Below, piece by piece: positions 6,001 to 63,998 of a stretch of 64,000 nt of DNA. The DNA lies in contig JAALGY010000030.1 of NCBI GenBank assembly GCA_032358165.1, forward strand, positions 248,001 to 312,000, read 5' to 3'. Position 1 is the first letter of the stretch. Each line of letters begins with the position of its first letter. The notes beneath the pieces were generated by a model. That model had not been told where the DNA came from and did not search any database. It saw nothing but the letters and a program-made list of their open reading frames with translations. The stretch comes from Diplosphaera chodatii. Taxonomy: Eukaryota > Chlorophyta > Trebouxiophyceae > Prasiolales > Stichococcaceae. The position numbers and the translations under genes were made by a program.

Positions 6001-9000
6001 CGGTATGTCACCTGTGCTTTAGGCCCACCATGGGCCCTTTCCTTGAGCATTTTCAGCCTCTGGCGTCCAGGAGTCCACGGCGGCGGCGGTGCTGCAGCGG
6101 CGGCTGCCGCGGGTGCCGCCGCACCAGGCCTCCCTCTGGTTCGCCGCCGGCCCCGCAGGTGCACGCAGCAGTGCTCCTTTGCGCAACTTACAGCATGAGA
6201 TCTATCCCACTCTTGTAGCCCAACTTTGCGGGGCTGTACAAGTGGCTGTACCTCCAGTGGGGCTCTTGTGATCTCCGGTCCCCATCTTCCGCAGGCGGCC
6301 GCTGGCGGGCGGTGGGCGACGCGGTCCGCCGGGCGCGCACCAGCCTGGCGCTGATGGAGCAGCTGGACCTAGTGGGGCGGACGGGCGAGACGGGGCGCGC
6401 CTTCGGCATCGACTTCCTGGCGGTGCTGTACCGCGGGAGCCAGTACCGGGTGGAGTCGCTCATGGCGCGCCTCGCGCACTCGCAGAACTACCTGCTGCCC
6501 TCGCCTTCAAAGGAGCAGGTGCGCGTCATCTGCGCTGCAGTACGTACCACCAAGAAGGTGGCGTGCTTTGGTGTCAGGAGAGAGGCCTTGCATGCTTGTT
6601 GCCTGAGCAGGCTGCTTGGTGCAGTATGCTGCGTGTCCTTGATCATGGCTTGCAGCTGCTCAGTGCCTTGCCCCAGCCGAGTCACGGGTCCAGATCAGGG
6701 GCCACCAGGTGATTCATTGCTGGGCGGCACCTCCGCAGGTGGGCACGCAGCCCGCGATGGAGGCGATGCCGCTGGTGATGGAGCCCGAGTCCCGCTTCTA
6801 CGCGGACGGCCCCGTGGTGGTCCTGGACTTCCAGTCGCTGTACCCCAGCCAGATCATCGCCTACAACCTGTGCTTCAGGTGGGGGACTGCCGCAGCTCTG
6901 CTGTTCACTCTCCTCGTGCGTGTGCATAAAACAGTGCCATGCTTCCTGCCACTGCCCCTGCAGAGCTGATGCTGTTAAGCCAGGACTCCTGGGTGGCAGC
7001 ACGCTAAAGCCTGGGGTCTGTTCTGCCACGGCAAAGTTAAGGTGCATACCAGTGGGCGGTGCACACCCTGGAGGGGTTTATTGATCAGACTGCCTCTGTG
7101 CGCGGTGCAGCACCTGCGTGGGGCGGCCGTCGCACGCCGCAGCGGCCGCGGACCCGGACAACGCGCCCCGCCTGGGCGCGCTGTCCCTGGCGCTGCCCGA
7201 CGGCACGCTCGTCGACGGCCTGGCGCCCGACAGGTGAGGGGCTGCAGTACATAGGTGTAGGGCTCCAGTGTCTGAGGGCCCCATAACGCTGCACATCTGC
7301 CATTGCAAGCACAAACTGCATGCAAATCGTATATGCTGGTCGAGGAGTCATCATGCGATATCACAAGTGTCACCCACTGGCAGGCGTCGAACGACTGCTC
7401 AGCGGTTGTGTCCTCATGTTCACAGCGTCAATGCTGTCGTCACGGCCTGCAGGCTGGTGGTGGCGCCGAACGGCGTGGCCTTCGCGCCGGCCAGCGTGCG
7501 GCCGGGGGTGCTGCCCCGCATGCTGGACGAGATCCTGTCCACCCGCATCATGGTCAAGGCGCGAACCATGAGCAACATGGTGCTGTACATATACAAAGCA
7601 ACATCCTGCAAGCCGGCCAACGAGACCAACGTCAAGTGCCAACCATGCCAGTCGTCACAGGGGCAGTATTTCAGCACACTAGCCTCAAGATATCGAGCAT
7701 CTTGTATCTGCATACTTCTCAGCACCAGTAATGAGTTGGATCTGGTGTGCGCAGGCGGCCATGAAACGGGCAGCGCCGGGCGCCAAGGTGCTGCAGCGGG
7801 TGCTCAACGCGCGGCAGTTCTGCCTCAAGCTCATCGCCAACGTGACGTACGGCTACGCCGCCGCCGGCTTCTCGGGGCGCATGCCCATGGCGGAGCTGGC
7901 GGACGCCATCGTGCAGGTGGCTGATGCCCTGTTGGGAGTGTCAAGATGTTGGGGTGGCCAGTGGTGAAGGCGTCAGAGCAGCGCAGCCTGGACATCAACA
8001 CCTTAAGCGTCAGAGCCCACGTGCTAGATTCTGTGTTTGTGCACAGCAAGGCTGAGGGCAACATGGGGGCAATGAGCCTGCACATGCCTGTGCTGCAGTC
8101 GGGGCGGGAGACGCTGGAGAACGCCATCCGGCTGGTCAACGAGAAGCCGGAGTGGGCGGCGCACGTGGTGTACGGCGACACCGACTCCCTGTTTGTGCAC
8201 CTGCCGGGACGGTGCGCAGCGGAGGCTGAGAACTTGCCGCATGACTCCTGCGAGCATACCTTTTACTGGCTAAGCACGTGTAGACGTTCAGCATACGACA
8301 TGTATTGGTTGAGCGGCAGCACCGACCGTGGTGTTGCAGGCTGTGCGCACCTGGAGCTGTATGTACACATCGGCCGGGCTGCTGTTGCCGCAGGTCGAGG
8401 GCTGAGGCGTGGCGCATCGGTGCGGAGATTGCGGCGCAGGTGACGGCAGACAACCCGCCGCCCGTCACCCTGAAGCTGGAGAAGGTGCGCCGCATTCTCC
8501 AAGGCAGCCGCCCGAGCTGCGGATGCCACCGAGTGTCGCAACGGGCATGACTGCCGTGTCATGCAGCATGGTCTGCTGAGGTGGAACCACGCTGGCTGCA
8601 GGTGTACGACCCCTGCACGCTGCTGACCAAGAAGCGCTACGCCGGGTACATGTACGAGTCACCGAACCAGACCAGCCCTGCCTGGGATGCAAAGGTCAGC
8701 ACTACTGGTGACGCGACATACAGTCCGTCCTCGTCATATGGAAGTCGCTGTTATGTCGACCATCGCTGTCAGTCCAACACGGGAGAACATGGGTGCTACC
8801 GGCATCGTGTGCTGCACACGCCCTGGCGTGAGGGAGTGCTGGCGCTGCAGGGCATCGAGACGGTGCGGCGGGACGGCTGCCCGGCGGTGGTCAAGATCCA
8901 GGAGCGGGCGATGCGGGTGCTGTTCGAGACCAGCGACCTGTCCGCGGTCCGTGCCTACCTGCAGCGCCAGTGGACCAAGATCCTGGCCGGCCGCGTCAGC

Positions 9001-33000: not shown

Positions 33001-36000
33001 AGCGCTACGGGGCAAGTTGCAGCCTCAGGCCCGCAGCTGGACCTGTCGCGACTTGACGCCCTGTCGGCGCCGCAGCTCCGGCGGTGGGTCGACAATGTCC
33101 AAGATTCCTGAAATCAGCAATGCTCTCCATGCCCCCGCAGGACCTCAGTCTTCACTGGCACGCCACACCCTGACTAACGTGCCGTGGAAGTGTGAGGGTG
33201 TGTGCTGGCCCTTTGGCCAGCTGAACGCCCGTCAGCGTGCCGACCAGGCGCCCGTCCAACCCGCAGGCTGTGTGCGGCGCTGAAGCCGGCGTTTGGGGAG
33301 CACGCGCCGCCGATGGAGCGCATGGCGGGCGCGGACCTGCGGGCGATGCTGCAGCTGCCCGGGCTGGCGGCGCACCCCGCGGTGGCGCGCGCCCTCGCCG
33401 CCGCCCTGGACCCCGGCCCCGCCTGGCCCCAGGTGCCGCCCACGCCGCGGGCGTGCAGCCCTGGCTGCGCTGGCATGGCGATGATATGCTTACCAGGATG
33501 TGGCTGAGTTGGGCGGGGCCCCGTGGCCAACGGCATAGTATGCCCAACCTCGGGTGCCGGGGCTGTCGTTCTGGGACGAAGGCCAGTTGACACGACACGC
33601 CTGTCGCATGAGCCGGGCACACGGTGTCTGCTGACTCATGCTGCTGAATTTCACCTGTGCAGGCGCCGCCTCGGGTGCCGGAGGGCGAGCCGTTCGACTT
33701 CGAGCTGCCGCAGGAGGTGACCGCACCCTGGAATCCTACCACCAGCCATTTGTGCTTGCTTGGCACCGTCACACCAGATGTCGTGCTGGCTGTACCTTTG
33801 TGTCAGCAGGCTGTTGGGCCACTGGTGCGCCCTGGGTCATGAACAAATGGTCATGCCAGCGCTGACGTGCCAGGTTGTTGTGGCGCAGGTGCTGCGCGAC
33901 AGGCCGCCGGTGTACGAGCACGTCAAGCGCAACGTCTGGACCGCGGGTGCGCAGCGGCCCAAGCGCCTGCACCGGGACAGCATCTCGGTGTGCTGCTGCG
34001 AGGCGCTGCCGCCGCAGCAGCACAACGAGGGCGAACCGCCTGCAGAGGTGAGTGGCAGCTGGCGCTGACCCAAGCAGAATGGTCCCACCTGACCTGTTCT
34101 GCATTTCAGGATTAGCCGTTTCGCTTGTCTGAAACAGTGTATAGTCTGGAAGATGCACCAGGCGCATTCGGGCTGTGTTACCGTGGAGGCCACCGTCCTG
34201 TCCCTGAGCTTGCTGCGCAACATCGCTGCAGGCCATGGGCTGCGGGGAGGACTGCCTCAACCGGCACTCCTTCATCCACTGCGACGCCAAGCTGTGCCCC
34301 GCGGGCGCAGCCTGCAGCAACCGGCCCTTCCACCAGCTGCGGCCGCCGCCCATGGAGGTGCGTGCCGCGCAGCAGCAGGCACCTGCAGCGTGGGGACTGC
34401 AACTGCGTGGGCGCGGCCGCCGCCTGTGTCGGCTGTTGTTCTCAGAGCGACACCTTGAGAGCTCTGACAGCTGAGGTACCGCTTCGATCCTTCCTGCGTC
34501 CTGCTGGAGAAGATATTGACCTCTCGCTGCAGATGTTCCTGACCAAGGACCGCGGCTGGGGCGTGCGCGCCACGGCGACGATACCCCGGGGCAGCTTCAT
34601 CGTGGAGTATGCAGGTGGTCACAGGTTGCTCAGCCTGATATGACCTGTGGCTACCCCTGGATGCTGCATGCCATTTGGTCGCAGGCTGGGGTATTTGGCC
34701 ACCATAGCTGTCTCCATACTAAGCCATAGGGTGAAACACACTCTAGCACCCATCAAGGGGGGGTAGGCGTGAGAGGGTGGCCTCGCCTACAGCCGAGGAT
34801 GTGCCCCGACAACCAGTGCTGCTCGGTGATACCAGGGTTCTGTGCTGTCCCGGCAGGCGAGGTGATCACCGATGTGGAGTGCAAGCGGCGGATGCGGGAA
34901 GCAAAGGAAGCCGGCGAGCCCCACTTCTACATGATGGAGCTGGGGCCCGGCCTCATCATCGACGCGCGGCAAAAGGGCAACGTTGCGCGCCTCATCAACT
35001 CCTCCTGCGTGCCGAACGCCGAGAGCCAGAAGTGGCACGACGCCGGCACAGGTGTGCTGCTACAAAACTGCGGCAGTGTTCAGGACGTAACAAAGCTGGC
35101 ACTTGCTGTCACAGCTCCTTGCGAGCAGACTGACAACAGTCCACAACCCTGCGCTGCTTCTACACGCAGAAATGTTTACGCGCATCGTGTGAACACTGTG
35201 CTGCAGGGGAGGTGCGCATCGGCATTTTCGCCAAGGACGACGTGCTGCCGGGCGTGGAGATCACGTACGACTACATGTTTCAGCACCACGGGCTGGCCGC
35301 CGCCGCGGCCGCCTACAGGTGGGCGGGTTAGCCTGCTTGCTCAACAGTACTCGATTTTCACGATCTCCACCTGCTGATGACGGTAGTGTCATAGGGCATG
35401 CATGCCATGAGCCGGGTGCATGTATCGTGCGGCAATCTCGGTACTTTTATGTGGAGCAGGTGCCGGTGCGGGGCGGCGGGGTGCCGCGGCACCATGGACA
35501 GCCAGCCCGAGCGCTTCAGGGACTTTGGGCAGCGTGTCGAGGTGCAACACTGTCGCACTGAATCGAAACTTGCATGGCTCTGCTGGGCTTAGCACAGTTT
35601 GACTCCTGCAAAGTTAGGGGAGGGTTCACAGTACGGTACAATCTCCCCCAGTTGTGTGCTCTTAACCTGGTATGGCTTCCTCCACCATATATTCGTCGGT
35701 TCTGGCCGAGAGACTTGCAAGATGTCTGTGAACAGCACGGCTCCAGCCGCACGCTGACAGAGTCCTGCCATGTCGCAGGTGTTCTGGGAGGGCGATGGCG
35801 CCTGGTACCGCGGCAGCGTGGTCGGCTACTCGGCGCTCACGCAGCGCCACACCATCCTGTACGATGACAACGACATCGAGCGCGTCGTGCTCGACGCCGT
35901 GCCCCACAGGTCCGCCCAGCAGCCAGTGCAGCCGCCACCTCGCTTGAGGGGCGCAGCAAACCCTACATCACACATGAAGATTGCCCTGGATGTGTTGCCC

Positions 36001-39779: not shown

Positions 39780-41171
39780 TTTGGTGCAGCCCTCCACTGC
39801 TGCTCGCTGCTGTGCTGAGCACCCCGTCAACTTGGCGCTGTGGCAGCTGCCGCCGCAGCGGCGGCGCTGGTCCCGCCAACAGCCCGCCGTCGATGAAAAC
39901 AATGGCGCACAGGTCGACTCAGGCGCTGCACACGCTGTTCACTCCGCCGCCAATGACGCACCGCGGCCAGCAGAGTGGGGAGGCCGCTCCTGAGGGTCGA
40001 CTCTGGGTGCCTGCAGGTACCGAGGACGGTCACGAACCGTCCTCCGACGATCAGCATGGGCTGCCCGAGGTAACGATACCGATGGTGCTGATAACGCTGT
40101 GGAAGAGGCGCACGCCACTGCACCGGCACCTCTGACAACAGTGCCGGTGACTCACCACAACTTGACGCACGCGTAACAGAGCACATCAGGACTGCAACGG
40201 ATCACGGCTGCGCAGGCTCATGAGACGCAACAACTGACATCACCAGCCGTGCTTGTCAGTGCCCACGGAGCTGCGTCTTGCTGAACAGCCCCGCATGTTG
40301 TCGAGTCGCTCGGAGAAGCCTTCACGAGGCAGCCCCAAGTACCTGCCCGAGTGCCAGCCACCGTCCGCACCTGGCCAAACTGCTGAGTCTCGCGCAGAAT
40401 GAGGATCGAGCGTGGTGCCCCCGCCCCGGCGGCCAAGCTGCAGCCGTGCACCTGGTGCAGGAGCCGCGGTGCTGCGTCTCCCAGGTCGCGCCGAGACTGC
40501 CACTGAAACAGTTGCCAAAACGGCTGCAACGTGTAGGTCGGCCTTCCCAGCGTGCTCACTCACTTTGATGTCGATGCTGTACGTGGGGTGGGGTCCAGCT
40601 GCGCGTCTCCCTACCTGCTCTCCGCACAGCTGGATGCACAGCTGGCGCCCTGAAGTTCTGGAACGAAGACTGACTGATGACACCAACTGACGACCATGCT
40701 GCTAGTAATGAAGACAATTGCCAGCTACATCCTGTTGCTCAAAGCGGCTTCCCCACCGCGGTCCGTGTCGTGCATGCTCTGCTCGCAACCCTGCATTAGT
40801 ACCTTGCACACTCAGCTACGTCACGGTACCCTTCCTTTCAGCATCTGGTAGTCTGCAAAGCTGAGCCTGTGCAGGCCCCCTCACCTACCGACGTCGTGAC
40901 TCACCTGACCCAGTGATTTCGAAAGGGGACTGAGCTTCGGGCCGCGTGTGCCACCGTGCAGGCAAGAGGCACGTTCAGCATTGTCACGGATCCTGGAGTC
41001 ACGAGTCAGAAAGCTGAGGCTCTGCAGTGATGGTGAGCCCCGTCAAGGGGGAAAGTGAAGGGCACCGCTGGCACGATGCGCATGCGCAACACTAGCCCTG
41101 GCCCTGGGGTGACGCTTGGGCAGCCAGCTGCGCTCTGAGTTAACTCATCGTACCAGCAGCGGGGCGGCGGC
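39780..41171. other. Intergenic region upstream of Cys-rich gene (-) and RAD21 (+)
   Basis: About 1.39 kb between divergent starts. It should contain both promoters. Open frames on both strands (for example around 40218-40690) are short, mutually overlapping and without recognisable features. I see no RNA gene. Confidence 0.45.
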
Positions 41172-44100
41172 ATGTTCTACTCAGCGCAGATCCTGGCCCG
41201 CAAGGGCCCGCTGGGCATCATCTGGATCGCCGCACACCATGACAAAAAGTATCTCAAGAAGCAGCAGGTGTCGGGCACCGATATCCTCGAGTCATGCGGT
41301 ATGCTCTCGTGCCTCTGACGCGATCCAACGTGTGCAAACTGTTCGTGGCCGCGAGCCTGGCTGGCACACGCCGATCATCCCCCTCGCCTTGCCGCCCCAA
41401 AGTGCCGCTGCTGAGGGTGCGTCCCGGCGCGGCGCAGACCGCATCATCTCGCCGGAGGCGCCGCTGGCGCTGCGGCTGTCGGGGCAGCTGATGCTGGGCG
41501 TGGTGCGCATCTACTACAAGCAGGTCGAGTACCTGGAGCACGATGCGCAGGGCGCCCTCGTCAAGCTGCGCCAGGTATGTCGCCAAATCCTGACTCTGGA
41601 CTGCAGCACGGACGTCTGAAGCGACCCCGACCAGCCAGGCGTTTGGGCTCAGCAGCCACACGTTGGCTGGGAGCTCATCTGTATGCACTCACCTGGAGTT
41701 GAGCTTGCACGTGTACCTGCCGCTTCAATTTGCGATTTGCTCATGACGGCGCGCCTCGCGGCCGCAGAGCCAGTGGGACAAGCCCGCGGACGTGAACCTG
41801 CCGCCGGAGAGCCTGACCGCTGCGCCGGACCAGATCAACCTGCCGGACAACATCTACCCCGATGTGCTCCTCGGCTCTGGCCTCACCCTGGACTCGGGGT
41901 GCGCTTTCAACCCCTTGATTTGTGGAATCAGGTTATCTGCCAGACAACACGTGAACGACCAAACGAACGATCACAAAAGCACATTTGTTGAGCTGTGCCG
42001 CAGTTGGTAGCTTGTCGAGAGACTGGATCATACGACCCTGGCTGCAAGACGGGCCGAGTTTTCGTGTTGTACAGCAGTGACCACCTTGCCGCTGTTGGAG
42101 TGCTTACGAACTGGGTGTTGCAGGTTTCTGGAGTCGCCGATGCGCACGCCGCGGGGCGGCACACCCCTCCGCGAGCGCCGCTCCTCCAACTTCCTGGTGG
42201 ACGACAACAGCCAGCTGGGCAGCGACCCCTTCCTCGGCAGCGGCCAGCACTTCGACGGTGCGAAACCACAGCTGCACAGCCACCATGTTGTGACCATGTG
42301 CACAGTGGGCTCACGCCACTTGCAAGTCCGTGAAGCCCCCAACCTGCTCCTGTATACCAGACCCCGACACAGCAATGCTTGGGAGGTGGCACTGACGAAA
42401 GCCACCAGAAAATCGCCTGTAGTGATGCTGCTTGCTCCTGAACGATAGAGCCGATGATATTCGACGCGGTCGAAGACCCAGACCTGGACCATGCTTTCCA
42501 CTATGACGAGCCGGAGCGGGCACGAGCGGCGCCTGCTGCGGACGCCGAAGCCGGCGCATTGACGGACCTGGGGGCCCTTGGCGCCACCCCAGATCAACTG
42601 CCATCATATGACGATGGTGCGGCCCTGCCTGCACTGCCATATCGGCGGCCCCTACACTACTTCCACGTTGGCAGCACACATGCCGCAGCCTTGATCCTGC
42701 TGACCTACTGAAACGGCCGTTCTGCAGGTGACCTGCCGATGCCGGATGCGCCGGACCAGGACCTACTGCCCACGCCCGCCTCGGGGCCGCTGCCGGCGTC
42801 GCCCGCCGGCCCCGATGCCTCGCCGGCAGCGCCGCCCCGGCTGCCCAGCATCGAGCCCTTTGCCGATGCCGAGCCCGCCTCCACCGGCAGGTCCGCAAAG
42901 CCCTGGGGACCATGGCAGGGTTACCTCATGTGGCTCCGCTGAGTAATATCAGCAGCAGGCTGCTGTCATACCACCATGGCCCTGCGGACAGCGTGCAGCA
43001 ATTGCAGCCAGCATGGCGTCAGCCCTGCCCTGGGTCACGCCACTGCCCTGGTGCATGCAGGACGCAGGCGGACGCTGCCAAGCAGTTGACGGGCAGGCGG
43101 CAGCGGCAGGCGCACGCGGTGCGGGCGCCCCAGCAGGTGCGGGGCACACGCAAACGCCTGCACCATACACACAGGCGCACCTGAGAGTCGTCTAGTGCTG
43201 AGGCTCATTGACTCTGTGCTCGCGCAACACAACCTCGGATGTGCTTGCCTGCAGGACAACCCCACGAAGCTGTCGTCGAAGGACATCTCGGGCCTGATGA
43301 AGGACCGGGCGCCCATCCTGCGGGACAGGGGGCCGCCGCCCAAGCGCCACCGCACCCGCGGACCCCTGCCGCCAAACCATGTGGTGCGGCGGGCCTCCAC
43401 TCAAGTGACAATCGGCTGGCTGCTGTTAACAGCAGGTCACACGCTTTGCTGGTGGTACAGTTCGCATGTCGGCTGCAGGGAACACAGTGCAGCGGCCTTT
43501 CACTTGCTGTCCAGCCAGCCTTCACGCACATTCAGACGGGTATATATATATATATTCCGTCTGCTTGCGTGCTGAAGGGCATGACCGCTGCCCCGCAGGC
43601 GGTGCAGAGCGCCGCGGCGGCAGACAGCCGGCTGTTCTGGCCGGCGGTGGCGGAGGCGATGGCGCCGGAGCTGTACGCCCCCTTCCGCGCTGCGATGGGC
43701 AGCTCGCCGACGGGCATGCCGCCGCCGCCGCCGCGGCTGGGCCACCGGCCCGCAGCGCACGATGCACAGGCCATGCAGGCAAGCCGGCTGTCTGAGCGTG
43801 GGCGAGCCTCAGTGATCCGAGCAGCAAAGGCACCCGGCCTGGAAAGCCGCCGTTCTGTGGCAAGCACCTCCTGGCATGTGGGAGTCGACGATCAAGCAGC
43901 GCTGGCATTGAAGCCCATGCTGCCGTGCATTGCCGCATGGTTTCAGGCACTGCATCCTCATCGTCGTGCTGTTCGCTGAGGTTGTTCTGGGTGAGGCACA
44001 TGCGGTACACTGAGGACGGCCACCACCTCCTGTTCTGAGCCTGGACTACTTGAATCCCTTGCGCAGCAGTGCTGCAGCTCTGCGGTGCCGCCCCGTAGCG

Positions 44101-45956: not shown

Positions 45957-47225
45957 TCAAGAGAGGTGCAGCTTGGCGACGCCTCGCAGGGTCAACAGCG
46001 CTGGCACATGGCGCCGCACCTGCGCACAACGTACCAGTGAGTGGCGATATACACAGCTGAGGCGGCTGCCCAGGCACGGGGCTCACTCATATGGCGAGCA
46101 TGCTTCCCTATGGTCCTGTGCAACATCGGCCCTAAGACATGCACTGACAGGCGGCGCACCTTGCGCCACAGCACTCTGCCGGGCTCATCAAACGCATCGT
46201 GCAGGACATTGGCTGCCTGCACACAACCAGGACTGGGCGTAAGCACTCGCCAGCATGTGTACCCACGGCAGCTTGCCTCCTTGCATGACATGCACACCCA
46301 GGCAGATGTTGTGGTGCCAGCTGCGTGCTGCAAGTGTGCGGGTGTCACCTGGAACATGCCGACCAGCATCGGCTCCCCTGGGAGACGCTGGCCGTAGAGG
46401 TGCATCTGCTCCATGATGCAGAACTGCAAGTGCACATATGATATTGTCAAGTCACAGCAGTGGAATCTTCAGATGTCATCAGGGTCCAGATGGTCCCTCA
46501 GAGGAGGCCGGCGCACGTCAGAGCAACCACCGTGCTCACCTCTCGGTAGAGGAACAGGTTGTTTGCTGTGACGATGCACACCTGCAGGGTGACCACCACC
46601 CGTGAGGATGGCCCTTCCACCAACAGTCACGATAGCTAGCCACAAAGCAGCATCTGGTTGCTGATCAGCATCAGCAGAAAGTAATTCACGGCGAGGAGAC
46701 TCACCAGCACGATGTGCAGGCAGCGCACATCCAGGAAGGGCACCAGCAGGTTGGGCAGCAGCAGGTAGGAGCCGGCGACCAGCGCCTTGGCGCGCCGGTT
46801 GAGCCGCAGCCCCACCGCACGAGCCAGGTTTGCCCACCGGGCATAATACGTCGCCCCTGCAACAGCCAACACAGACGCTCGTGCGGAGCTCAGCAGAATC
46901 TGTCAGGGCATCATCAAAGTGTAAAGGAGCGCCAGACCTCAGCGGTTCCTCCCGATCAATTCACAGGACAGGCAAGCTGTCGCAGCATCTCACCATAGAG
47001 CGTCATTGTGAGCAACGGGAACAGCAGCTCCCCAGCGGGCATCGTTGCCAAGACCCCCAGGGGTCCAAGGCCCCTGCTGGCCCCAGGCGGCCGCAGCCAC
47101 ATTGGAGGCCCATGGCGCAGGCCCACGTGCGGCGGCCGCACGCAGCACTGCCAGAACCAGGCCACAGGCTGCCGCACAACAAGGTCCGCGGCCCCCTGCG
47201 CCGCTGCGACTAGGACGCTACCCAT
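45957..47225 (-). CDS. Array copy A: small multi-pass membrane protein, unknown family
   Basis: Six exons in phase: 47225-46994, 46856-46705, 46581-46540, 46423-46349, 46216-46160, 46019-45957, for 206 residues. Hydrophobic segments include AGELLFPLLTMTLYG at the end of exon 1, AGSYLLLPNLLVPFLDVRC in exon 2, and IVTANNLFLYRE in the 42-nt exon. The 75-nt exon gives the shared EQMHLYGQRLPGEPMLVG. The last exon ends TLRGVAKLHLS. I do not recognise the family; two or three membrane helices and a short amphipathic tail are visible. It is the most diverged member in exon 1 and also the only one for which every exon could be placed without doubt. Confidence 0.72.
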
Positions 47226-48022
47226 GCTGCTGCTGCGGACTGCTGGGCGCCGTAGCGGCGCCCATTGCGAAGCTTCACGCTAGGTGACTGACCATGGCAG
47301 GCCAGTCAAACAAATTGCCGCAGCGGCCAGCTTCTGCACGGCGCAAACTTCCTCACAATCCTCTTGATGTTATGTGCCTGTTGGATACTGCTGATGCCTT
47401 TTCCTGAGGCTGAGTTGGTGTCGATTGGGCAGCTGGTTTGCGGCACTTGACGGACAACCCGACAACCTGAAGATGATGTGCCCTGAGGATTGTCGAGCCT
47501 CCTCTGATCTCCCTGCAAAAGCTGCAGTCGGCGGTGACAGACTGTAGTGACGCTTCTCACGCCATAAGCTCACTGTGACACGCGCTATGCAGGTTCTCCA
47601 ACCCGTGAAGCCTTGGCTGCACTTGACCACGTGCAGGCACAACGACCCATGCTCAAATGCTCCAGGGCCACCCTGGATGTTACACAGAATGCTCATCATT
47701 GCCACGAGATGCTACGAAGGTATAGACAGCCAAACTGGTTGACCGTAAACCCTTGGAAAGTTGAAACCTCATTTGCCCGTTCGCATCGTCCACCTTGCCT
47801 ATATATGCTGTATGTCCGCTCATGATGTAATTGCGCCACTCCGCCATGCACATCAGCTCAGCAGCTGTGCTGACTTTGCACACAGGCCTGAAATCACTAC
47901 TTAACCTGCGACCTGCTGTGACCTACTCACATACACGCGCACTGACTAGCGTGGGCATGAAGTTGTGTCGTCTGGTGCTCCGCTGGCGCCAGGCCAGCAT
48001 CCCAGCCGCTCATACCGTACAG
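47226..48022. other. Spacer between array copies A and B
   Basis: About 800 nt. It should hold the copy A promoter and copy B 3' region. No further exon matching the family was found. Confidence 0.45.
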
Positions 48023-49203
48023 TCACAGGATGTGCAGATGGGCCAGACTTCGAGCCGTCACCATCACGCGCTGACGCACCTGCGCTGAATCATCCTTGGT
48101 CGGTATGCCACCGTTCGACAACACTGGAGTCGGACGCTGTCAAGCAGGCGGTCGACCGTAATATGCCAGCCGGATGCGGTGCGCACCATTGGCAGTAGCA
48201 GATTGGCGAGCATGGCGAAGCGGAACAGCAGGCGTGCCAGGCGTGCCGACGCCTACGCAAGCGACTCCACAGGAAGCTACGCTGTGCATTTCACACATGT
48301 TTACACTGCAACTGCATACCATGTGCAGCACATGTTGTGCGGCAATCTGCATCTCATAGCTGACTGACCTCGCGGAAGGCGACAAAAGAGGGTTCCCCAG
48401 CCAGCTGGCGTCCATGGTCTCGCTGCTGGCGTGCAATGACTTCCTGCTTGACGATGCAGCATCGATTGACTGCAGGAGCTTTTGGCAAGCATGCTTGCAG
48501 CACCGTGGCAGCTGCGTAGCATATGTACCAACAAATGCTGATTTTCACCTGCCGGGATAGCACCGCATTGACAATCAGCCAGATAACCCTCTGTGCACGC
48601 AAAGCAGTCTTAGTGTGCAACTATCACGCCCAGCCTGCAGTTGCCAGTCTGTACTCACTGTATCCTGCTCAACGGTCACACTAAGCTTGGCATTGATGAA
48701 CAAACCATCAGAGTAATGTACAGCTGCAATGTACCAGTGCCACGAAGAGGCACCCGGTGTTGACAAACAGTGCCGAGAAGGCTGGCACCGACACAGATGC
48801 CACCCCCAGCAGGGACCACATCCAGCCATCAGTCGCCACGCCCAGCAGAGGCATCTGCTGGCACACATCGAGGTAGAAAGCTAGCCCTGCAGTGCAGAGA
48901 GACGTGTGCGTGTTGAGTGGAAGGGTGCAGGGCGTTTGCGCAGCTAGCAGAGCGTTTCTGGTCAAGGTTTCACTATATCAGCAGTCAAGCAAGAATGTAA
49001 GTTTGTAAGACATGCGCACCAAGGCTGGCACACAACAGCGAATTGAACACTTGGCCGCCAGAGCGCAGCAAAGCCAGCGCAGACGATACGCTGGTGGTCG
49101 GCCGGAGACACGAGCGGCACAATTGGTATGCAGACTGAAAGCTGAGCAGCTGCCTGACAGGCAGTTTTGCCGCCAACAGCACTGCATCCAGCAGATCGCC
49201 CAT
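48023..49203 (-). CDS. Array copy B: small membrane protein, unknown family
   Basis: Exons: 49203-49020 (184 nt), 48886-48735 (152), 48590-48549 (42), 48443-48369 (75), a penultimate exon near 48170-48120 that I could not delimit, and 48079-48023. Exon 1 contains AKLPVRQLLSFQSAYQLCRS, closely similar to copy C. The 152-nt exon has VATDGWMWSLLGVASVSVPA and FVNTGCLFVAL. The 42-nt exon is RVIWLIVNAVLSRQ. The 75-nt exon has EVIARQQRDHGRQLAGEP, matching copies C and E. The terminal exon is VRQRVMVTARSLAHLHIL. Function unknown. The exon lengths equal those of copy A exactly, which supports a functional gene. Confidence 0.68.
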
Positions 49204-49917
49204 GCTGCTGGTCGCACGGCTGCTTCACGTCTGCCAGACTTCAGGCCAAAGCGTGTGCCTCTTTTAACGGATACACCATGTCACGCTGACCCGTGTTACA
49301 TGACAAGCAGGAGCCTTAAGGACGCTCAGCATCCTGATGCCGCCATGTCAATATGCAGCGGGGATGCCTGGCACTGTTTACTGGGCTCTGCACAAACCTG
49401 CTGTATGTGACGAAGCCACAGCGTTTGCTGCAAGTGTGCACGCACGGCATTGCTGGGACTGCGAGCACGTGCAGGCAGCAGGAAACCCTAGACAGGCAGC
49501 GATGCAGCAGGAAGCACTACAGCGTTTGGTTCAGATGCCAACCATCGATCTGTGGTGTTCGTTGCTTTCACAAGAGAGACCTCGGCTGCAACGCTGCAGG
49601 CCTATCTACATGTGAAGCTGTACATGCATACATACCGTATTACCATTGGTATGTGCACTTGTCTATACTCCTTTCCTTTCACCCCTACTGATCTGCCTGT
49701 ACACTCTGCTGCGGTGACGCCAAATCCTGCCACACGAACATGCATGCACAAAGCTAAACCTGAACATCGCGGTGAATCCGAAAGCTGCTGCCCTGTGCAT
49801 ACATCACCACCAGGAAGCCCTAGTGCTCAGTGCGCTGAGCACCCCGAAAGGGGGTGCAGGGCTTTCTTGTAGCACGTCATGATTTTGTGACACACCATGT
49901 CGCACGTCAACCCACAA
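49204..49917. other. Spacer between array copies B and C
   Basis: About 710 nt with no family exon, RNA gene or repeat that I can recognise. Confidence 0.45.
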
Positions 49918-51252
49918 TCACACGGCCGGTCCACGCAGCTTGACGAGGGTTGGCGGCGTCGGTAGATTCGGCCCAAACCGCTGCCACTGCAGTGGCTTTG
50001 AGACCGCCGTCATAGATCGCAGCAGGAAGAAAGGTCCATTAACTTCTTTAGATGTCAAGCAGGCATAATATAGTTGGCAATGTGGCCGTCATGTGCTGCT
50101 CACCGTTGGCCGAAACACTCGTGCAAAGTTGGCAGCTTCAAACATCATGCGCATGAATGACTGTGCAAGAAAAATTCCGCACTGGTTTCAACGACATCAG
50201 CCTATCCTAAACATCTCAGTGGATGTAGTAGGGCGCTGTGTGCATTGCACGCTGCATAACTCTCAACAGGGCCGCCACACCTCGAGGATGCCGCCATCGT
50301 CCTCCGGGGCCCTGGGAAATTGCTGCCCACCCTGGGTCCCATTCGGCACTTGATCCCTACGGTCCTGCTGCTGGCGCGCAGTGTGCTCCTGACGGGAGGA
50401 TCACAACCGCAAACGGGTGAGGGGCCTGCCAGCAGAGTCAGTCCGCCTGCATAGTATCACACCTGCAGAGAGTAGCACACAGCGAGAGCTACCAATGAGT
50501 GCTGAGTCACCTCTCCCATTGTGGCCAGGTCCTCGATGGTATATAGCCAGCTCTGCGCAGTCAGCACACGTTCAGTGAGCAGTGCCTGCCTGTCGCTTTT
50601 GGTGTGTGTGCATACACGCAGCGCACACAGCTTTACAGGTGCTCGACAGCAGCAATGTGAATGTGATCTGCATGGCGTGCGCTGCAGGCTGCAGAAGTGC
50701 ACGCATCACAAGTGTGCCAGATGTGCTTGCTGACCATCATTTTGTGTCCGCAAGCAGGCGTAACAGATGTTGTCAGGTCACATGTCGCTGTGGCGCACCT
50801 GCCCCACTAACAGGCACCAGAAGTCGATGTACAATGCTGATATGGCAGGCACCACCGTGCAGGCCACACCCAGCAGGATCCACTTCCAGTCATCGGTTGC
50901 CGCGCCCAGCAAAGCTCTTCGGCGGCGGAAACCGCGGAACCATGACAGCCCTGCCGTGTCACCACTCCAGAGATTTTCATCAAATGGCAGCATGCACGGC
51001 CAACGTGCACCGGAGCTCGCTGTGGACCTTGAGTGTTTCAGCAAGCCACCAACGTCTGTAAGCTTGCTCACCAAGCAAGGCGCCCAGCAGCATATACAGG
51101 AATTCACGAGCAATCAGCAAACCCAGCGGAGGTGGCACGCTGGCCTGCGACCGTACACATGAGCGACACAGGTGGGCTGGTGCTTGCCAGCTGAGCAGCT
51201 GACTCACGGGCAGCCGAAACACCATCAGCACTAACACGTGTGACAGGGGCAT
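49918..51252 (-). CDS. Array copy C: small membrane protein, unknown family
   Basis: Exons: 51252-51072 (181 nt), 50950-50799 (152), 50552-50511 (42), 50388-50281 (108), possibly one more, and 49986-49918 (69). Exon 1 has FRLPVSQLLSWQAPAHLCRS, paralogous to copy B. The 152-nt exon carries the clearest membrane helix, WKWILLGVACTVVPAISALY, followed by IDFWCLLVGQ. The 42-nt exon is SWLYTIEDLATMGE. The 108-nt exon starts EHTARQQQDRRDQVPNG and is longer than the 75 nt of the others. The last exon is Pro-rich (LPTPPTLVKLRGPAV). Function unknown. Confidence 0.68.
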
Positions 51253-52140
51253 ATTGCCTACGCTCCTGACTGCACACGGCAGATCTACTGTCAGATCAGG
51301 GCAAGACCACCCGCTCTTGCAACTTGCTAGATGATTCCACGCACGCTCATCAGCTTCGAGCTCTGACGTATATACAAGTCCGAGGTGGCCTTATGTATGA
51401 TGTGCAGGAACCTGATGGATACCACCACGTGCATATACAGCGGGGACTGGCAGCCTTCACATGGCAGCTGCACTTATGATGAACGAAGCCACATGATGTT
51501 CTCCTGGAATAAGTCGCAATGCAGGAACTGGGACGACTCTGGTGAGCAATGTCATCCCGGCTCTAGTAAACCCTACCCAAGCAGACATGCTGCATGGCCA
51601 CCCCGAAGCAAGCTGCAAAACATGCTTCCAGTCCCACAACGAATCAACCTTCACACGTAGGTAATACACGCACGACTCTGTTGCATCCGTTACAGCCTGA
51701 CCCACACACTGCGCCGCCCTGCCAAAAATGCTACACTGCACCCGGCCATCGATACATATCGCCTTACATACACTTTGATCTGGTCACTGTTCTCTGAGCA
51801 CGTCATGCGTCCACAAATGACTTAAGTTCAACACCTGGCTGCATCGCGTGCGAGCTGCTGGAATCAAGGTGTACGCAGCTACACTACTCTAGCAAAGAGT
51901 TGACGAACCACAAACATGCCAGATGACTGCTGTGCGCATGGTGCTCTCGCTGCTAGCGATAGATACACCAGGTGCGTGCCACCTGCATGCTCATACCTTG
52001 CGCAGCTTTGCCAGGGTAGGCGGCGTCAGCAGACTTGGTACATGCTGCTGCACCTGCAGTGAGTCACACCGCACGTTATTACTGCAAATGCCACCAAGCA
52101 GTGTGCGTGCCAAGCAGGCAGCAGCGGAAGCGGCCGCCTA
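51253..52140. other. Spacer between array copies C and D
   Basis: About 890 nt. Copy D lacks recognisable downstream exons, and remnants of them could lie here, but I could not align any with confidence. Confidence 0.4.
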
Positions 52141-52992
52141 TCATGTGAAGTCACACACCAGTGGCTGCAGCAGGCGCCCAAACTCGCCGAGGACGATCTG
52201 GAGCTGCAGCAGCGCAGTTAGCAGATGCGGCAGAGCCTCCGGGAGGTGCACCAGCGCATTTGGACGACGCCGGGCGAAATTCCAGTACCTCACCCAGCTG
52301 ATGATGAGCATTGTCCACACCTGCTCAAGAAATACACGCTTGTCAATCCGTGGAAAAATTGATTTGTTCAGAAAATGAACACTGGACCCCAGACACCACT
52401 TGGAGCTGTGAAGAGCTCACCAGGAGGCTACACCTCTGGTTCATGCTGACATGTGATGTAACACATTGGCAGTCCAAGGGTATATGGTGCCTGAAGCGGC
52501 TCAACTTTGCAGCATACCAGCGGCGGCATGATGCATTCGCTGTTGATGAAGATTGCCAATGTGATGGGCACCACCACACACGCCACGAACAGCAATGCGC
52601 TGACCCAAAGGTCGTTTGGCATGCCCAGCAAATCCCATCTGGGGTCGGGATGGTGGCGACACGATTCCCACATAGTCAGCCCTGTTGCACACTGAACAGA
52701 CAGCAGGTGAAGAGATCACACATGGCTGTGCGGCCAGAATGCACGCATGTACAACGGCTCTGATGGCTGTCTGCGTGACAATGACCATCACATTCTCACC
52801 AAGGATGCCGATGTAGGGCAGTGTCCTATCGCCAGACTGCAGCTTGGTGAGCACAGCTGACATGCCGCCATCATCTTGTCTCCGGCACATGGCAGTCATG
52901 AAGCTCATGGCCTCCACGACCTCTTGGAACCGCAGGGTGAACAACAGCCGCCCCAACACCAATACCAGCACAACCATGACCAGCACGACCAT
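52141..52992 (-). CDS. Array copy D: diverged small membrane protein
   Basis: Exon 1 is 52992-52800 (193 nt, ending GILG in the shared phase) with a strongly hydrophobic start MVVLVMVVLVLVLGRLLF. Exon 2 is 52681-52518 (164 nt, four residues longer than the other copies) with LLGMPNDLWVSALLFVACVV and IFINSECIMPPL. The next exon begins after an AG near 52320 with VWTMLIISWVRYWNFARRR and stays open to a stop at 52141, giving a Leu-rich tail (LPHLLTALLQLQIVLGEFG). The later exons found in A, B, C and E are not seen. It may be a truncated but expressed copy. The ATG at 52992 was chosen as the first true ATG in frame. Confidence 0.55.
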
Positions 52993-54001
52993 GCTCCTGG
53001 TCACTGTGGCCACATCACGTCAGCATCGCCGTCAGATGGCACGCAGCTGCGCGTCTTTTACTGGCCAACAGGACAAGTGCCCATGCGTGCTCATGCGGTT
53101 CTACGGCAGGTATCGATCATCACCTGGGTACAGATGCAGCCGGGCTGGTGTGAGATCAGGGCAGCTTGCAGGGCTACAGCAGGTAGTACCTGCTGTCACA
53201 AGCAGTGTGGCAAGCAGTGTACAGCCGCTCTACGTGCTTGCTGTCAAGCACACTACTACGTACCCTCGTCGCCACAGATCAGGACATGACGTGTGCGAGT
53301 TACTGTATTTTTAGAGATGGACTGCTGCAAGCAAGGCACGTACGCCAGAATCATACCACTCACCCAAGCAACGGGTTCTGGATCCGCCGTGTGAATATGC
53401 AGCGGGAGTTGGCAGGTCTTCATCTGTGTGATGCGAGTGTGTGTTCACCAGGACACCTAGTGTGAAAGTGTCGGGCAATTGACCCCTCAAACTGTACATG
53501 TGAGCACGTGCGGTTGTGGGAAACCCTACACAGCAAGTGTGCTGCAGGATGTGGGAAGATGTGCGTTCAGCATGCATGTCGGCGACGCCGCATGCCCAGC
53601 AGTAACACAGCTGGCTGTCAGTGGGCACTGGTGACACCCACTGCATCAGAATGTCAAGTGGTACGCTGACAGGCTGCCCGGCCATGGTGGCTTTGACGTC
53701 GTCCTACCTGCTGACACTACATGCATAAATACCGCAGCACGAGACGGTTGCATGGTAAATGCCCTGCAAAGCTGCACGTACATTTCGACCCTGTCTGCAT
53801 GCACTGGCCCTACATCCATATATGCTGTGAATGACACAAGCACTTTGCTACCTCATCATACACAGAAAGATTGCATACGCAGATACAGCATGCAGCCAAA
53901 AAAAATCCCCTAAAACACGAATGCGCAGACTGACATGGGCACCACACAAATCAGGGCGCAAGGTGGATTATTAGCACCCGCAGGTGAGCCTGATAGGCCA
54001 C
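52993..54001. other. Spacer between array copies D and E
   Basis: About 1 kb, relatively AT-rich. No family exon, RNA gene or known repeat recognised. Confidence 0.45.
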
Positions 54002-55105
54002 TCAAAAGACGTGCAGCTTGGCCGCCACAGCCGATGGCCTGAGCAGCCATGGTGGCAGGTCCTGTCGAACCTGCAGCGCGTCAAGATGCAATTGCTGCCA
54101 CTGCATTGCCTCACCCGAACGACCAGCTGTTCACAAGAAGAAGCAGCTGGACGGTGCTCAGCAGTAGTGACTCAAGCGCTTGCCCAGTTGCGAACCCAAG
54201 GACAGTGTGCACAGCAGCACCTGTTGAAGTTTAGCCCACAGGAAGGCGCATACTTCCCCTGGTCGCTGCAAAATGGGTTCTGCTGGCAGGCGCCGCCCAT
54301 AGAGCTGCATCTGCTTTGCAATTGTCTCCTGCTCAGTGCACCCATGGCAAACTGTAGGTGGAGCAACTGATGAGCAGGAATAGCATGCCAGGGTTGCTGC
54401 GGATGACACACATGATGATGCTGGGCTACCTGCCGGTATACTGCCACCCTCATGAATGCAATTATTCCATTCTGTGCAGTCAACACAAGCTCAGGATGCT
54501 CATCGGCAATGATGTGCTTCGCGTGCAATATATATGCAAGAGGCACCAAAAGGTTCGTCGTAGAAGTACTGAGTCAGCTGAAAACTGACGACTGTCTCAT
54601 CAGGAGGCAGTCACTGAGCCAGGAAGAAGGATCGTGGCAGCAGCATACCAGGATTGGCACTGAGCGGCACATGTCGTTGAAGTACAGCACGACTGTGAGA
54701 GGCACCACCGTGCATGCCACACCCAAGACGACTTTCGTCCGTCGGTCATGGCACGCCCAGAAAGTGGATCCGATCGTGCCACTCGTGGAACATGGCTACG
54801 CCTGCGACAGCAACAGCCAAATTCACTGTCAGATGGCCGGTCACACATGGTACAGGATGTTGCCACGGTACGTCAACGAAGAGAAGGACGAAGAGTGGTC
54901 ACAGCAGGTCACCAGTAGAAAACACCCAGCAGAGGACATAGTGTTTCAGCAATGAAGGCTGCGGAGCTGACGTCTCAGCATTGAGCTGCGGACTGACGGC
55001 ACACACACTGACCGCCGTCATTGTCATGTTTATGTTGGCAACAATCGCAAAGGGTGCCGAGATCAGCTGTGCGAGCGACAGCACCAGGCCCAGTATGCAG
55101 CCCAT
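54002..55105 (-). pseudogene. Array copy E: frameshifted membrane-protein paralogue
   Basis: Exons: 55105-54913 (193 nt), 54801-54649 (153), 54471-54430 (42), 54328-54254 (75), a poorly defined one near 54140-54090, and 54070-54002 (69). Exon 1 is hydrophobic (LGLVLSLAQLISAPFAIVAN). Exon 2 starts in frame as GVAMFHEWHDRIHFLGVP and then hits a stop, while the paralogous LGVACTVVPLTVVLYFND continues in another frame; its length, 153 nt, is one more than the 152 nt of copies A-C. The 42-nt exon is NGIIAFMRVAVYRQ. The 75-nt exon has ETIAKQMQLYGRRLPAEP. The last exon ends AVAAKLHVF. Everything else is intact, so this is either a young pseudogene or a one-base sequence error. Confidence 0.65.
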
Positions 55106-59198: not shown

Positions 59199-61675
59199 TC
59201 AGATAAGCGCTGCCATGGATGATGATGGGCAGCTCGCGCGCCGCTCTGACGCATTTGCACTCGAGCCTGCGGCGCTATTAGCTCCAGTCAGGGCACATGC
59301 GAAAGCACCGATGAAGTGACCACGGCTGCAAGATGAGCTTTCTGCTGCTTGACTCTCTGGCTGCCAGCCATGAATGCACACAGAACGGTGCGTAGAGCAT
59401 GCAGTGCGCTGAGTGTCACACTGGCAATACCAGTGCGTGCTATGCACGCGCCTGTAGTTCATGGTGCATGGCAGCACATGCAGCTTCGAGGGGTGTTTCC
59501 TGAAGTAGATGTTCAACACGTCCTGATCACCTGCACCAACGTGGTGCATGGTGTCGGTCCATAACAGCTACATGCACCATACATGCACCTGACCTGCAGC
59601 ACATCAGGCCGGCCGATCAACTTCACAGCTGTTAACATAACACCCGGCTTACCAAGAAGCAGTTGGTGTCCCCATTGCTGCATGATTGCATTTCGGTGGG
59701 CCGCAAAGTTGGAAGCCCTGATACCATCAAGCCGTGCCAGCAGCACACCAGAACTGAGGCCTGCAAACGCAGCGTCAAAGCACAGGTGACAAAGCTCCAC
59801 ATGTCAGCCACTGACCACAGTCACTGCTGACACAAACACCACGAGACAGGTGTCAGCAAATGGCAACACTCACCGCCGCCGGCCCTGTAGCCATCTAGTG
59901 CTGCACCTGGGCCTGCAGCAAATCAACACACAACGGATGTGGTGACCATCCCAAGTCATATCTTGCTCCACGATGCACATATGCAGCTATGCAATATGTT
60001 GAGCTGCGGAAAGCTGCTGGATTTGAACACCTGCAGTGTACCTGCAGTGCGCCAACATGGCAATGAGGTGACACCGCACAGCAAACTGCAGGGCAATCAT
60101 CATGCATTTGTCATGGATGTGCGGCAGCATGTGTGAGCTCGTGACATGCCACCACTGACTGCGTGAACTCGACCGCACCAATGGCACTTCTGCTCTTGTT
60201 CCGGCTCTTTTGCATCTGTCACATGCGACAGCCCCCATGCAGTGCCCGGGGCCATCTTGCTGAACTCTTCTGCCATCAGCGCAGGGTCCGCCATCCACAG
60301 AGTGTCAACATCCGCAAAGATGACGTCTGAATGTGCCTGCAAACCAGGTGGCAGTGCCCACCGTCTGATCACAGTGCGCACTGATGGACAGTGCATGGTC
60401 TGAGGGACAGGTATTTTGACGCCAAACGACGGTCTACACGAAGCCCACAAACCTGGAGGCCCTCGAGCTCGCCCAGGAACAGGCGTTCTGTCGCGCACCT
60501 CTTGAAGAGCTGCGGCACCAGCAGGCTCACCCGCCGAATGTACATATCTAACCTGCAACCATGGCAACATGATCAAAACACGGAATCACGCACCACGGAT
60601 CTGTACACAGCATCGCACTGCAGCTCACAAACGAGACTGCAGTCAGCTTGGTGAGCAATGCTGCTACTACGCCACACCATAGTGCTGCAGCAAATGCGTC
60701 ATGATGGGTGAAGGCATGTGTGTGCCACTGACGAAGAGGCAGGCGTCATGTTTGAAGAGGTCGCAGAATTTGCTGGCAGCCATCGTGGCGACCATGCATG
60801 GAGACACAGAGCCAGGGACTCACCGCGACTCGAACGGCCGCAGGTGGTGCGCCTGCACCGCGCCGTCAGTCAGGACGACCGCCTGGTAGGTGACGCCGCG
60901 GCGCTGGGCCATGTGGTACATTGACGTCAGCGCCACCAGCAGCTGCCGGGCCGCCGCGTCAACGCAGGCGGCGTACACAACCGTCACCCGTGACACCATC
61001 GCAGGCGCCACAACACCAGGTGCAATCGCTGTTTCTGCAACCACCTGTACCACATAGCAGAAGGGGGGTAAACTGCCGGCATAGCACACACACGCATGGA
61101 GTAAGCAGGCCACAAGCGTATGGGTGCTCATTACATATTTGAGGCACTTGTGTACCAAGCAGACTCCTGGACAGCACTCGCAATTGTGAACCGGCGGCAG
61201 GTGCCGGCAAACACATGGCAATGCAGGGTGTGGAGATGGCCTGACTATATGGCATGCATGCGGGCATGCGTGGGCGATGCAGCTTTCTACCAAACAGATC
61301 GATCAGCGAGCACTGGTTTTTAGACGACAGAAAGCAATTCTGGACGTTTTAAAAACAAGCGATATTTGCCGATATATCGCGCACCTGCTGCGCATTTGGG
61401 GTGCGGTGTGGTGCGGATCCGCCGCCAAAGACGGTCACGGTTGCAGGTGGTGACGGCGGTGAGCCGAAGCTGGCAGGCTGATGCATAGCCGCTGACCTGC
61501 CATATATGACCATGTCCTCTGTGATCTGCTCGGCACCCAGCAGCATCCTGGCTGCATGGTTTCTTGACGCCACCGGCCGAAGGCGGTGCAGGCCGACGAC
61601 CAGGCAGCCCACAAGGATGCAGTTCAATAGCATGCTGGCGCAGCACGCTACTCGTGACAGCAGTTGACGATGCAT
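59199..61675 (-). CDS. Glycosyltransferase family 8, GXYLT (glucoside xylosyltransferase)-like
   Basis: Type II Golgi/ER membrane glycosyltransferase. Exon 1 (61675-61385) encodes a short basic N-terminus and a signal anchor (CCASMLLNCILVGCLVVGL). Exon 2 (61044-60824) has RVTVVYAACVDAAARQLLVA and VTYQAVVLTDGAVQ, the GT8 nucleotide-sugar strands. Further exons: from 60772 (KFCDLFKHDACLF); about 60570-60450 (QLFKRCATERLFLGELEGLQ); from 60336 (SDVIFADVDTLWMADPALM, with the metal-binding D-x-D); about 59785-59620 (LSSGVLLARLDGIRAS); and about 59545-59199 (GDQDVLNIYFRKHPSKLH then VLPCTMNYR, a GXYLT hallmark). Several internal joins, notably around 60730-60570, could not be put in phase, so the model is incomplete. 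The C-terminal part after the MNYR motif shows little similarity to animal GXYLT. The acceptor sugar cannot be inferred. Confidence 0.78.
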
Positions 61676-62347: not shown

Positions 62348-63998
62348 TCATCGTTGGCTGCGAGGGTCTCTGCGCGCCGCGCCGCCCCCCTGCATCGAGG
62401 GGTACTCGCCACCGCCGCCCGGCATCGCCTGCCGCACAAGCGGCGCAAAGGGGTTGGCGTCGAACACTGCCGCCGGCGGCTGCTGGGGCTGCTGCAGCAC
62501 TGGCTGGGCATACTGCGGCTGGGCTGCCCCGTACTGCTGCTGCTGCTGCTGCGGGGGGTACTGCGGCGGGGCTGCACCATACTGCTGCGGGTGCGGCAGC
62601 CCGCGGCTGCCAGCGTACTGGGTTGGCGGCGGGCGGTACCCACCCTGGGGCCGCACCCCCGGCTGGCCGTACGGCGCTGCGCCCCCGTAGCCGCTGTGGG
62701 GCCGGGGCGGCTGCTCGTACTGGTGCTGCTGCTGGGGCGCCCCGTACTGCGGCGGCGGCGCCTGGCCATACTGCGCTTGTGGCCTCTGCTGGTAGGCACC
62801 TGCACGAAAGCGAATTTGCTGACTTGCTGCATCCTTGCCAGATCCCCCGGACCCCAGGGCATTGATGCCCGTCTGCAATGCATTATATGCTTGCAAGCTG
62901 TACGCTGCTGCAGCACAATTCTGCTCTATTTAACATAGGTGCACACGGTGCTGATGTTGTGCTGGTGCAAGACTGCCTGGCCACAACATCACTGAACCCC
63001 ATGTCCGGCAGGCAGTTCCCATAAAGCCAACTACGGCCTCGGCTACAGCCTCATTACAGCGGGGTGCTCTCACCGCTGTGCTGATTCAGCGGCGGCGGCC
63101 GCAGCGCCCCGAGCGCCACGCCGGCCCCCGGCCGCGGGCGCCCGCCGCTGTACGCCCCCGGCGCCGCGTCCAGGAACCGCGGCTGCTGCGCCGCGATGGG
63201 GGCAAAGCCGCCGCCGCCGCCGCCGCGGCCGCCGTAGCCAGCGCTGCCGTATGGCCCCGCCCCCGGCCGGGCGCCGCCATACGCCCCTGCTGGCGGCGGT
63301 CGCACTGGCGGCGGCACGCCGCTGTACTGCTGGCTGTGGGCCCCTGGGTAGCCGCCGTTGGCATATGGCGGCAGCGGCCCCGGGCGTATCCCCGGCGGCG
63401 GCCCGCCCCCCCTGGGGCCGTACAGCTGCGCGGGCGGCGGCACCGCCGCGCCGCCCATGGAGTGCTGCAGGAACGCAACAGCGCCAGGCATCAGCAGAAA
63501 GGATATGGACAATTGGCCTTAGGGTCTGACAGGTGTCCTCAGCTGCCATTCCATGTCCTTTAGAAGCAGGCGTGCGTAAGGTGGGCAGCATGTACAGAGA
63601 TGCTGCTGTGCCTGTGGAAGAGCCACCAAGACAAGAGGCCATCTGCCCCGACACCTCACATCAGCACAGCATCACGGCGACATGACAGAATCAAATACCT
63701 GCAGCATGCGGAAGCCCTCGGGGCCGAGGTGCGAGGGCGGGCCGCGGGGCGCGCGGGCCGCCCCAAAGCCCGTCAGGCCCCTGTCCTCCCGCTCCGCATG
63801 GAAGCCCTGCAGCACACACGCACCATGGTGTCTCGAATCACTGCAGGCTCGGCCATGTGAAGGGTATTGCAGGACACGATTAGCATTGGTTTACTGATTA
63901 TGAATGCTAGAGGGTGTCGCTGATTCACGGTCGCAATACATTCCAGCATTGAAGCGCACCCGGCGGCCGCGGTTGTCCTCGTGCCACAGGGGCTTGGG
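62348..63998 (-). CDS. C-terminal part of Gly/Pro/Gln/Tyr-rich protein, possible 5'-3' exoribonuclease (XRN) tail; 5' partial
   Basis: Four exons in phase run from the window edge: 63998-63960, 63806-63699, 63464-63074, 62799-62348, encoding the last 329 residues. The first two exons give PKPLWHEDNRGRR then GFHAEREDRGLTGFG; a LWHED segment followed by basic residues just before a low-complexity tail is what I recall of plant nuclear XRN exoribonucleases, but no catalytic domain lies in the window, so this is a weak inference. The remainder is low complexity: GGYPGAHSQQYSG and [18 protein letters not shown], then QAQYGQAPPPQYGAPQQQ-type repeats with QYG/PQY units, ending NPFAPLVRQAMPGGGGEYP. 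Such Tyr/Gln/Gly tails are typical of RNA-binding, condensate-forming proteins. The rest of the gene lies beyond the high-coordinate end of the window. Confidence 0.6.

Follow-up and report, generated by a model that had tools for sequence, protein, structure and literature searches.

A tandem array in Diplosphaera chodatii that probably combines one conserved membrane-protein gene with old duplicates under loosened constraint

Are the five small genes that stand in tandem at 45957-55105, on the minus strand of a 64,000-nucleotide stretch of the Diplosphaera chodatii genome, being diversified by selection, or are they one conserved gene with its loosening duplicates? This stretch (the window) is C24:248001-312000 of an assembly of 85.6 Mb in 55 contigs. 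The original prediction for the locus proposed diversifying pressure, for example in a surface or transport role. We consider it probable that the array consists of one conserved gene, g1, encoding a small and probably integral multi-helix membrane protein, and of old tandem duplicates with loosened constraint, some of which are being lost. Its history would thus comprise duplication, weaker purifying selection and loss, with g5 broken in the window and a sixth copy, g6, decayed on another contig and absent from the window. Genes are numbered g1 to g5 in ascending coordinate order, which is the order of the letters A to E in the original prediction, since its exon lengths match in that order alone.

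A series from a strongly constrained parent through a broken copy to a lost one can be read here thanks to the presence of two diverged versions of the array in the genome. The second lies on contig C14; C24 and C14 are hereafter called the two genome copies. C14:303231-312235 and C14:336004-369479 are colinear with positions 1-9000 and 32978-64000 of the window, the parts compared, at about 68-96% DNA identity by block. From this colinearity, and from synonymous divergence (dS) of 0.34-0.46 over g1 to g4, the array region appears to be present as two diverged genome copies. Gene models were derived from a base-by-base alignment of the window with C14 and from spliced models of five genes in both copies. 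Nine of the ten spliced models are open, window g5 being the sole failure, and all nine have intron phases of 1,0,0,0,0 or a matching shorter series.

The genes g1 to g4 are open in both copies. The conserved member g1 (45957..47225; exons at 46994-47225, 46705-46856, 46540-46581, 46349-46423, 46160-46216 and 45957-46019) encodes 206 amino acids (aa) in exons of 232, 152, 42, 75, 57 and 63 nucleotides (nt), identical in length in both copies. For g2 (48023..49203, 191 aa; 49020-49203, 48735-48886, 48549-48590, 48369-48443, 48187-48252 and 48023-48079) the lengths are 184 (window) or 205 (C14), 152, 42, 75, 66 and 57 nt, and for g3 (49918..51252, 202 aa; 51072-51252, 50799-50950, 50511-50552, 50281-50388, 50104-50160 and 49918-49986) they are 181, 152, 42, 108 (window) or 78 (C14), 57, and 69 (window) or 63 (C14) nt. 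Introns 3 and 4 are missing from g4 (51991..52992, 193 aa; 52800-52992, 52518-52681, 52159-52320 and 51991-52053), with exons of 193 (window) or 181 (C14), 164, 162 (window) or 120 (C14) and 63 nt. Finally, g5 (54002..55105) is interrupted in the window at the conserved splice sites (exon-like stretches at 54913-55105, 54649-54801, 54430-54471, 54135-54328, the end being provisional, and 54002-54070), and its C14 counterpart is open, with 201 aa and exons of 196, 155, 42, 144 and 69 nt.

Much of the predicted exon architecture was recovered. The 152-nt second exon of A, B and C is found in g1, g2 and g3 of both copies, and the 42-nt third exon of A, B, C and E in g1, g2, g3 and g5 of both. The 75-nt fourth exon holds for g1 and g2 in both copies but not for g5, where the C14 exon was modelled as 144 nt because C14 has CT in place of the GT donor seen in the window. 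Conservation to the base is thus true of these shared lengths, but it does not extend to g4, without introns 3 and 4 and with a 164-nt exon 2, or to the frame-broken g5 of the window. Between the copies, identity is higher in the exons of all five genes than in their introns: 90.2 vs 62.6% in g1, 84.0 vs 69.1% in g2, 85.3 vs 72.0% in g3, 81.1 vs 69.4% in g4 and 82.5 vs 69.9% in g5. Where exons of g2, g3 and g4 differ in length, the difference is divisible by three: it is 21 nt in g2, 30 nt and 6 nt in two exons of g3, and 12 nt and 42 nt in two of g4. Splicing of g2 to g5 is predicted from this conservation. For g1, all five junction positions are spanned by five contiguous homologues of 209-232 aa from outside this genome (P0001, P0002, P0003, P0004 and P0014). 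P0002 bears the name of an MMETSP transcript, so that this sequence exists as mRNA in its organism; each of the remaining four could, by its source, be a transcript or an intron-free gene.

The paralogy of the array genes is beyond chance in these sequence comparisons. A profile of g1 and its outside homologues matched a profile of g2 to g5 with E = 1.2e-15 over 144 columns, and 14 of 15 pairwise Smith-Waterman scores exceeded all 300 shuffles (for g1 against g3, one shuffle in 300 reached the score). With the open, phase-consistent models, this bears out the prediction of five minus-strand tandem paralogues. The duplications are also old, as had been predicted. In a tree of 15 sequences, computed under LG+G4 with 1000 ultrafast bootstraps and including the decayed C14 g6 but not window g5, g2 to g6 formed one clade with support 100. 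Window and C14 copies grouped as pairs at 100 for g2, g3 and g4 and at 99 for g1; therefore these duplications are older than the split of the two genome copies. Copy-to-copy protein distances, as summed branch lengths, rose from 0.06 in g1 to 0.21 in g2, 0.27 in g3 and 0.47 in g4. Having been duplicated before the copies separated, g2, g3 and g4 have since then evolved faster as proteins, under weaker purifying selection.

Selection was measured as the ratio of nonsynonymous to synonymous divergence (dN/dS) between window and C14 by the Nei-Gojobori method, with 500 bootstrap resamples. One pair per gene gave gene-wide values, which are compatible with selection at single sites; g5 and g6 were left out as one copy of each is broken or absent. 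The ratio was 0.10 for g1 (bootstrap 0.05-0.18), 0.22 for g2 (0.13-0.35), 0.32 for g3 (0.19-0.50) and 0.44 for g4 (0.27-0.67). Similar dS with rising dN/dS points to similar age and unequal constraint. Differences between the copies were in excess at third codon positions, with p = 5.6e-9 for g1, 1.3e-7 for g2, 0.0096 for g3 and, weakly, 0.032 for g4. Thus, g1 is under strong purifying selection, and constraint loosens as a gradient along the array from g1 to g4. Two flanking open reading frames (ORFs) had a dS of 0.35, in agreement with the array; their dN/dS values of 0.53 and 0.67 were set aside because both ORFs extend into intron sequence.

These values bear directly on diversification. 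The paralogues are only 23-30% identical to g1, and one search returned no relatives of g2 to g5 beyond the D. chodatii genome among the matches listed; both observations would suit a surface or transport family that is specific to the lineage and diversified by positive selection. However, none of the four measured pairs shows the gene-wide dN/dS above 1 of a diversifying surface-protein array: the ratios lie at 0.10-0.44 with every bootstrap interval below 1, although such pairwise values leave room for selection at a few sites. Moreover, one copy is broken and one is decayed or missing. Taken together, the broken copy, the lost copy and the low ratios indicate relaxed constraint rather than diversification, and we give the diversifying family little credence. 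None of the results speaks for a surface or transport role as such.

The break in g5 and the loss of g6 were followed in both copies. Compared with C14, window g5 lacks 2 nt in exon 2, which creates a TGA, and has 2 extra nt close to where exon 4 ends. Rescue by other splice sites was considered: 14 donor-acceptor pairs would mechanically restore an open frame between the ATG and the end of exon 2, but the conserved acceptor is used by none of them and the second break, in exon 4, would persist. Window g5 is therefore treated as broken, although an assembly error may lie behind the frame break. The sixth copy is found on C14 alone, between g4 and g5 (C14:357138-358483). It keeps the 152-, 42- and 75-nt exons, but its exon 1 is out of frame and the AG expected where exon 5 begins is missing; from its sequence it is a decayed gene. 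In the window the body of g6 is missing and part of its upstream region is kept, at 53373..53551 (minus strand), matching C14:358631-358811 with 75% identity. Because of this relic, g6 is probably ancestral and was deleted from the window copy. As in a birth-and-death tandem array, C14 has six copies, of which g6 is decayed, and the window has five, of which g5 is broken.

The same losses, with the rise of dN/dS along the array, could mean that g2 to g5 are essentially all pseudogenes on their way out, and the RLPGEP block is no longer visible in g4. Against this, the frames of g2, g3 and g4 are intact in both genome copies, every difference in exon length is a multiple of three, the dN/dS intervals of these genes lie below 1 and their exons are better conserved than their introns. 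We regard general pseudogenisation as quite unlikely, and keep to g1 with duplicates under loosened, rather than absent, constraint.

What g1 itself may be is indicated by its relatives. In a large protein collection, its homologues are the five outside proteins, which carry no function assignment (E 5.7e-98 for P0001 and 4.4e-49 for P0002). They resemble g1 in length and in a shared core comprising T-x-T, Y-x-R-W, PN-x-L-x-P, LH, NN, LYRE-x-C-I and RLPGEP. Pfam gave no family for g1, g3, g4, C14 g5 and P0014 up to E 1, nor for g2 and P0001-P0004 up to E 5, and nine single-exon ORFs gave one chance match (E 0.21, below the cut-off). A PDB sequence search returned no significant match for the array family. 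These searches leave the family as unrecognised as the original prediction had said it to be. Of the loops noted there, the QxxLYGxRLPxEP type can be made out in g1, g2, g5 and g6, but is degraded in g3 and no longer recognisable in g4.

Across the nine open sequences of g1 to g5, M1, C28, R30, G78, G93, P112 and C123 are invariant. Both cysteines occur in all 11 sequences from g1, g2, g3 and g4 (two each), C14 g5, C14 g6 and P0001, and are absent from P0002, P0003, P0004 and P0014, which differ in this from g1, P0001 and g2 to g6. This distribution fits duplication after the lineage of g1 and P0001 had split from P0002-P0004 and P0014. A wider set of 46 positions is, by its definition, invariant over the two copies of g1 and the five outside homologues; independently of it, g1 is tied to that family by its homology to P0001 and P0002. 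The eight g2 to g6 sequences examined keep 10-19 of the 46. By profile, g2 to g6 are homologous to g1, yet by this test they are not its equivalents.

AlphaFold models were computed for P0001 from 5 sequences (mean predicted local distance difference test, pLDDT, 58.8) and for P0014 from 9 sequences, with four window exon translations added (mean pLDDT 69.3). In the latter, blocks over residues 81-160 reached pLDDT 80-88, and helices were placed at 77-103, 110-127 and 133-164; a long N-terminal helix and a linker of low confidence come before them. The model suggests three core helices in the family, which would be hydrophobic and lie behind a variable N-terminal helical segment. Membrane insertion of the product is likely from its sequence, and the role of g1 might be that of an accessory or assembly subunit in the membrane rather than of a soluble enzyme. 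This role is put forward tentatively, with far less certainty than the evolutionary account. Remote membership in a family of small multi-helix membrane enzymes was also considered, such as MAPEG (leukotriene C4 synthase), whose features are glutathione binding and a catalytic arginine. Structure comparisons of the models gave no fold match that stands out: the best Foldseek match in the PDB had an E value of 1.8, a Z as low as that observed is common among unrelated helical bundles, and Pfam had no match. An enzyme of this kind is highly improbable.

An upstream sequence box links some of the duplicates. CCGCTGCATATTCACACGGCGG or a variant begins (5' end) 158-191 base pairs (bp) upstream of the start codons of g2 and g3, in the window and on C14 alike. 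In the window, the g2 box (49340..49361, minus strand) has 2 mismatches and lies 158 bp before the ATG, and the weaker g3 box (51422..51443, minus strand) has 5 mismatches and lies 191 bp before it. The box of C14 g6 starts 180 bp before its ATG, and an identical one (22/22) is found in the window at 53384..53405 (minus strand), 413 bp before the g4 ATG. The latter is apparently left over from the deleted g6, and may now serve g4. With at most 3 mismatches, which leaves out the window g3 box, the genome has 8 sites, 5 of them in the two arrays and 3 elsewhere; a reversed control had none. The box could be either a promoter element common to these genes or a leftover of their duplication. A function is mildly favoured by the full identity of the two g6 boxes, against 75% over 187 aligned surrounding columns. 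The duplicates g2, g3 and g6 would then possibly be co-regulated variants of the subunit.

Accordingly, g2 to g5 could be neofunctionalised partners of g1 in mixed membrane complexes, partly co-regulated through the box. A common frame, the two invariant cysteines and a box nearly private to the arrays speak for this; however, the box itself was not found upstream of g1, g5 or C14 g4, where the best-matching sites in 700 bp carry 8-10 mismatches. We consider such partners rather unlikely. Less likely still is a more specific form, in which g2 to g6 would be lineage-specific, partly co-regulated subunits that have lost most of the parental core, retain the exon frame and the private box together with two newly gained cysteines, and form mixed, cysteine-linked complexes with g1.

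Several observations, the patchy box among them, weigh against our account of g1 as a membrane protein with loosely constrained duplicates. The attachment of g2 to g6 relative to g1 and P0001 has a support of 51%. Given the few g1-family positions that they keep, g2 to g6 may have left the job of g1, and g2 to g5 are predicted genes. Both structure models have a low predicted template modelling score (0.37 and 0.44, with 5 and 9 sequences), and hydropathy peaks above 1.3 are few: two in g1 and from one to four in the other sequences, with a single peak in P0001 and in P0002. Finally, a link between C28 and C123, which would fasten the N-terminal segment to the beginning of the third helix, is conjectural; the alignment is firm at C123 and less so at C28, near which that of the outgroups is uncertain.

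The array nevertheless outlines a small conserved protein family with neither a Pfam entry nor a known function, in which g1, rather than the fast copies, is the main gene of functional interest. The two cysteines common to every copy and the upstream box are the best leads. Divergent duplicates have a parallel in the ETCHbox homeobox genes of mammals, described in PMC8208926 as highly divergent duplicates of a conserved gene that arose by tandem duplication and loss. The likeness lies in this mode of evolution; ETCHbox genes differ in encoding animal transcription factors, of a protein family unrelated to the array.

As to the genome context, the assembly has a sole match to the RuBisCO large chain, an open rbcL of 475 aa on C55. 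The best PDB matches of this rbcL include 1gk8, the Rubisco of Chlamydomonas, which makes a green alga likely. With the colinear C14, the single rbcL match suggests a hybrid or duplicated genome. PMC12636532 presents Auxenochlorella UTEX 250-A as an allodiploid green alga, comparable to the D. chodatii assembly in its two diverged genome copies and different in its haploid length of 22 Mb, against the 85.6 Mb assembled here; the comparison bears on genome context alone and not on the array family. Protein searches of the genome for further copies with g1, g2, C14 g5, g3 and g4 (E<=1, only the best candidates scored) matched the two arrays, except for weak single matches on C13 (E 0.96), C33 (E 0.02) and C32 (E 0.11). 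The C33 match was considered as an extra copy; reading of its ORFs disclosed a low-complexity stretch, and it was judged a chance match.

Other genes were noted around the array. Two exons at 34116-35377 (plus strand) encode SET-domain sequence, one scoring above the Pfam cut-off and the other just under it, and an ORF at 41113-41619 (plus strand) has a Rad21/Rec8 N-terminal domain and is likely a cohesin subunit. Beyond the array, ORFs at 60100-61302 (minus strand) presumably resemble a nucleotide-sugar glycosyltransferase (DVDTLW); two single ORFs there had no Pfam match up to E 0.01. Further on, at 62348-62929 (minus strand), an ORF with many Q, P, Y and G residues looks by eye like a low-complexity RNA-binding tail.
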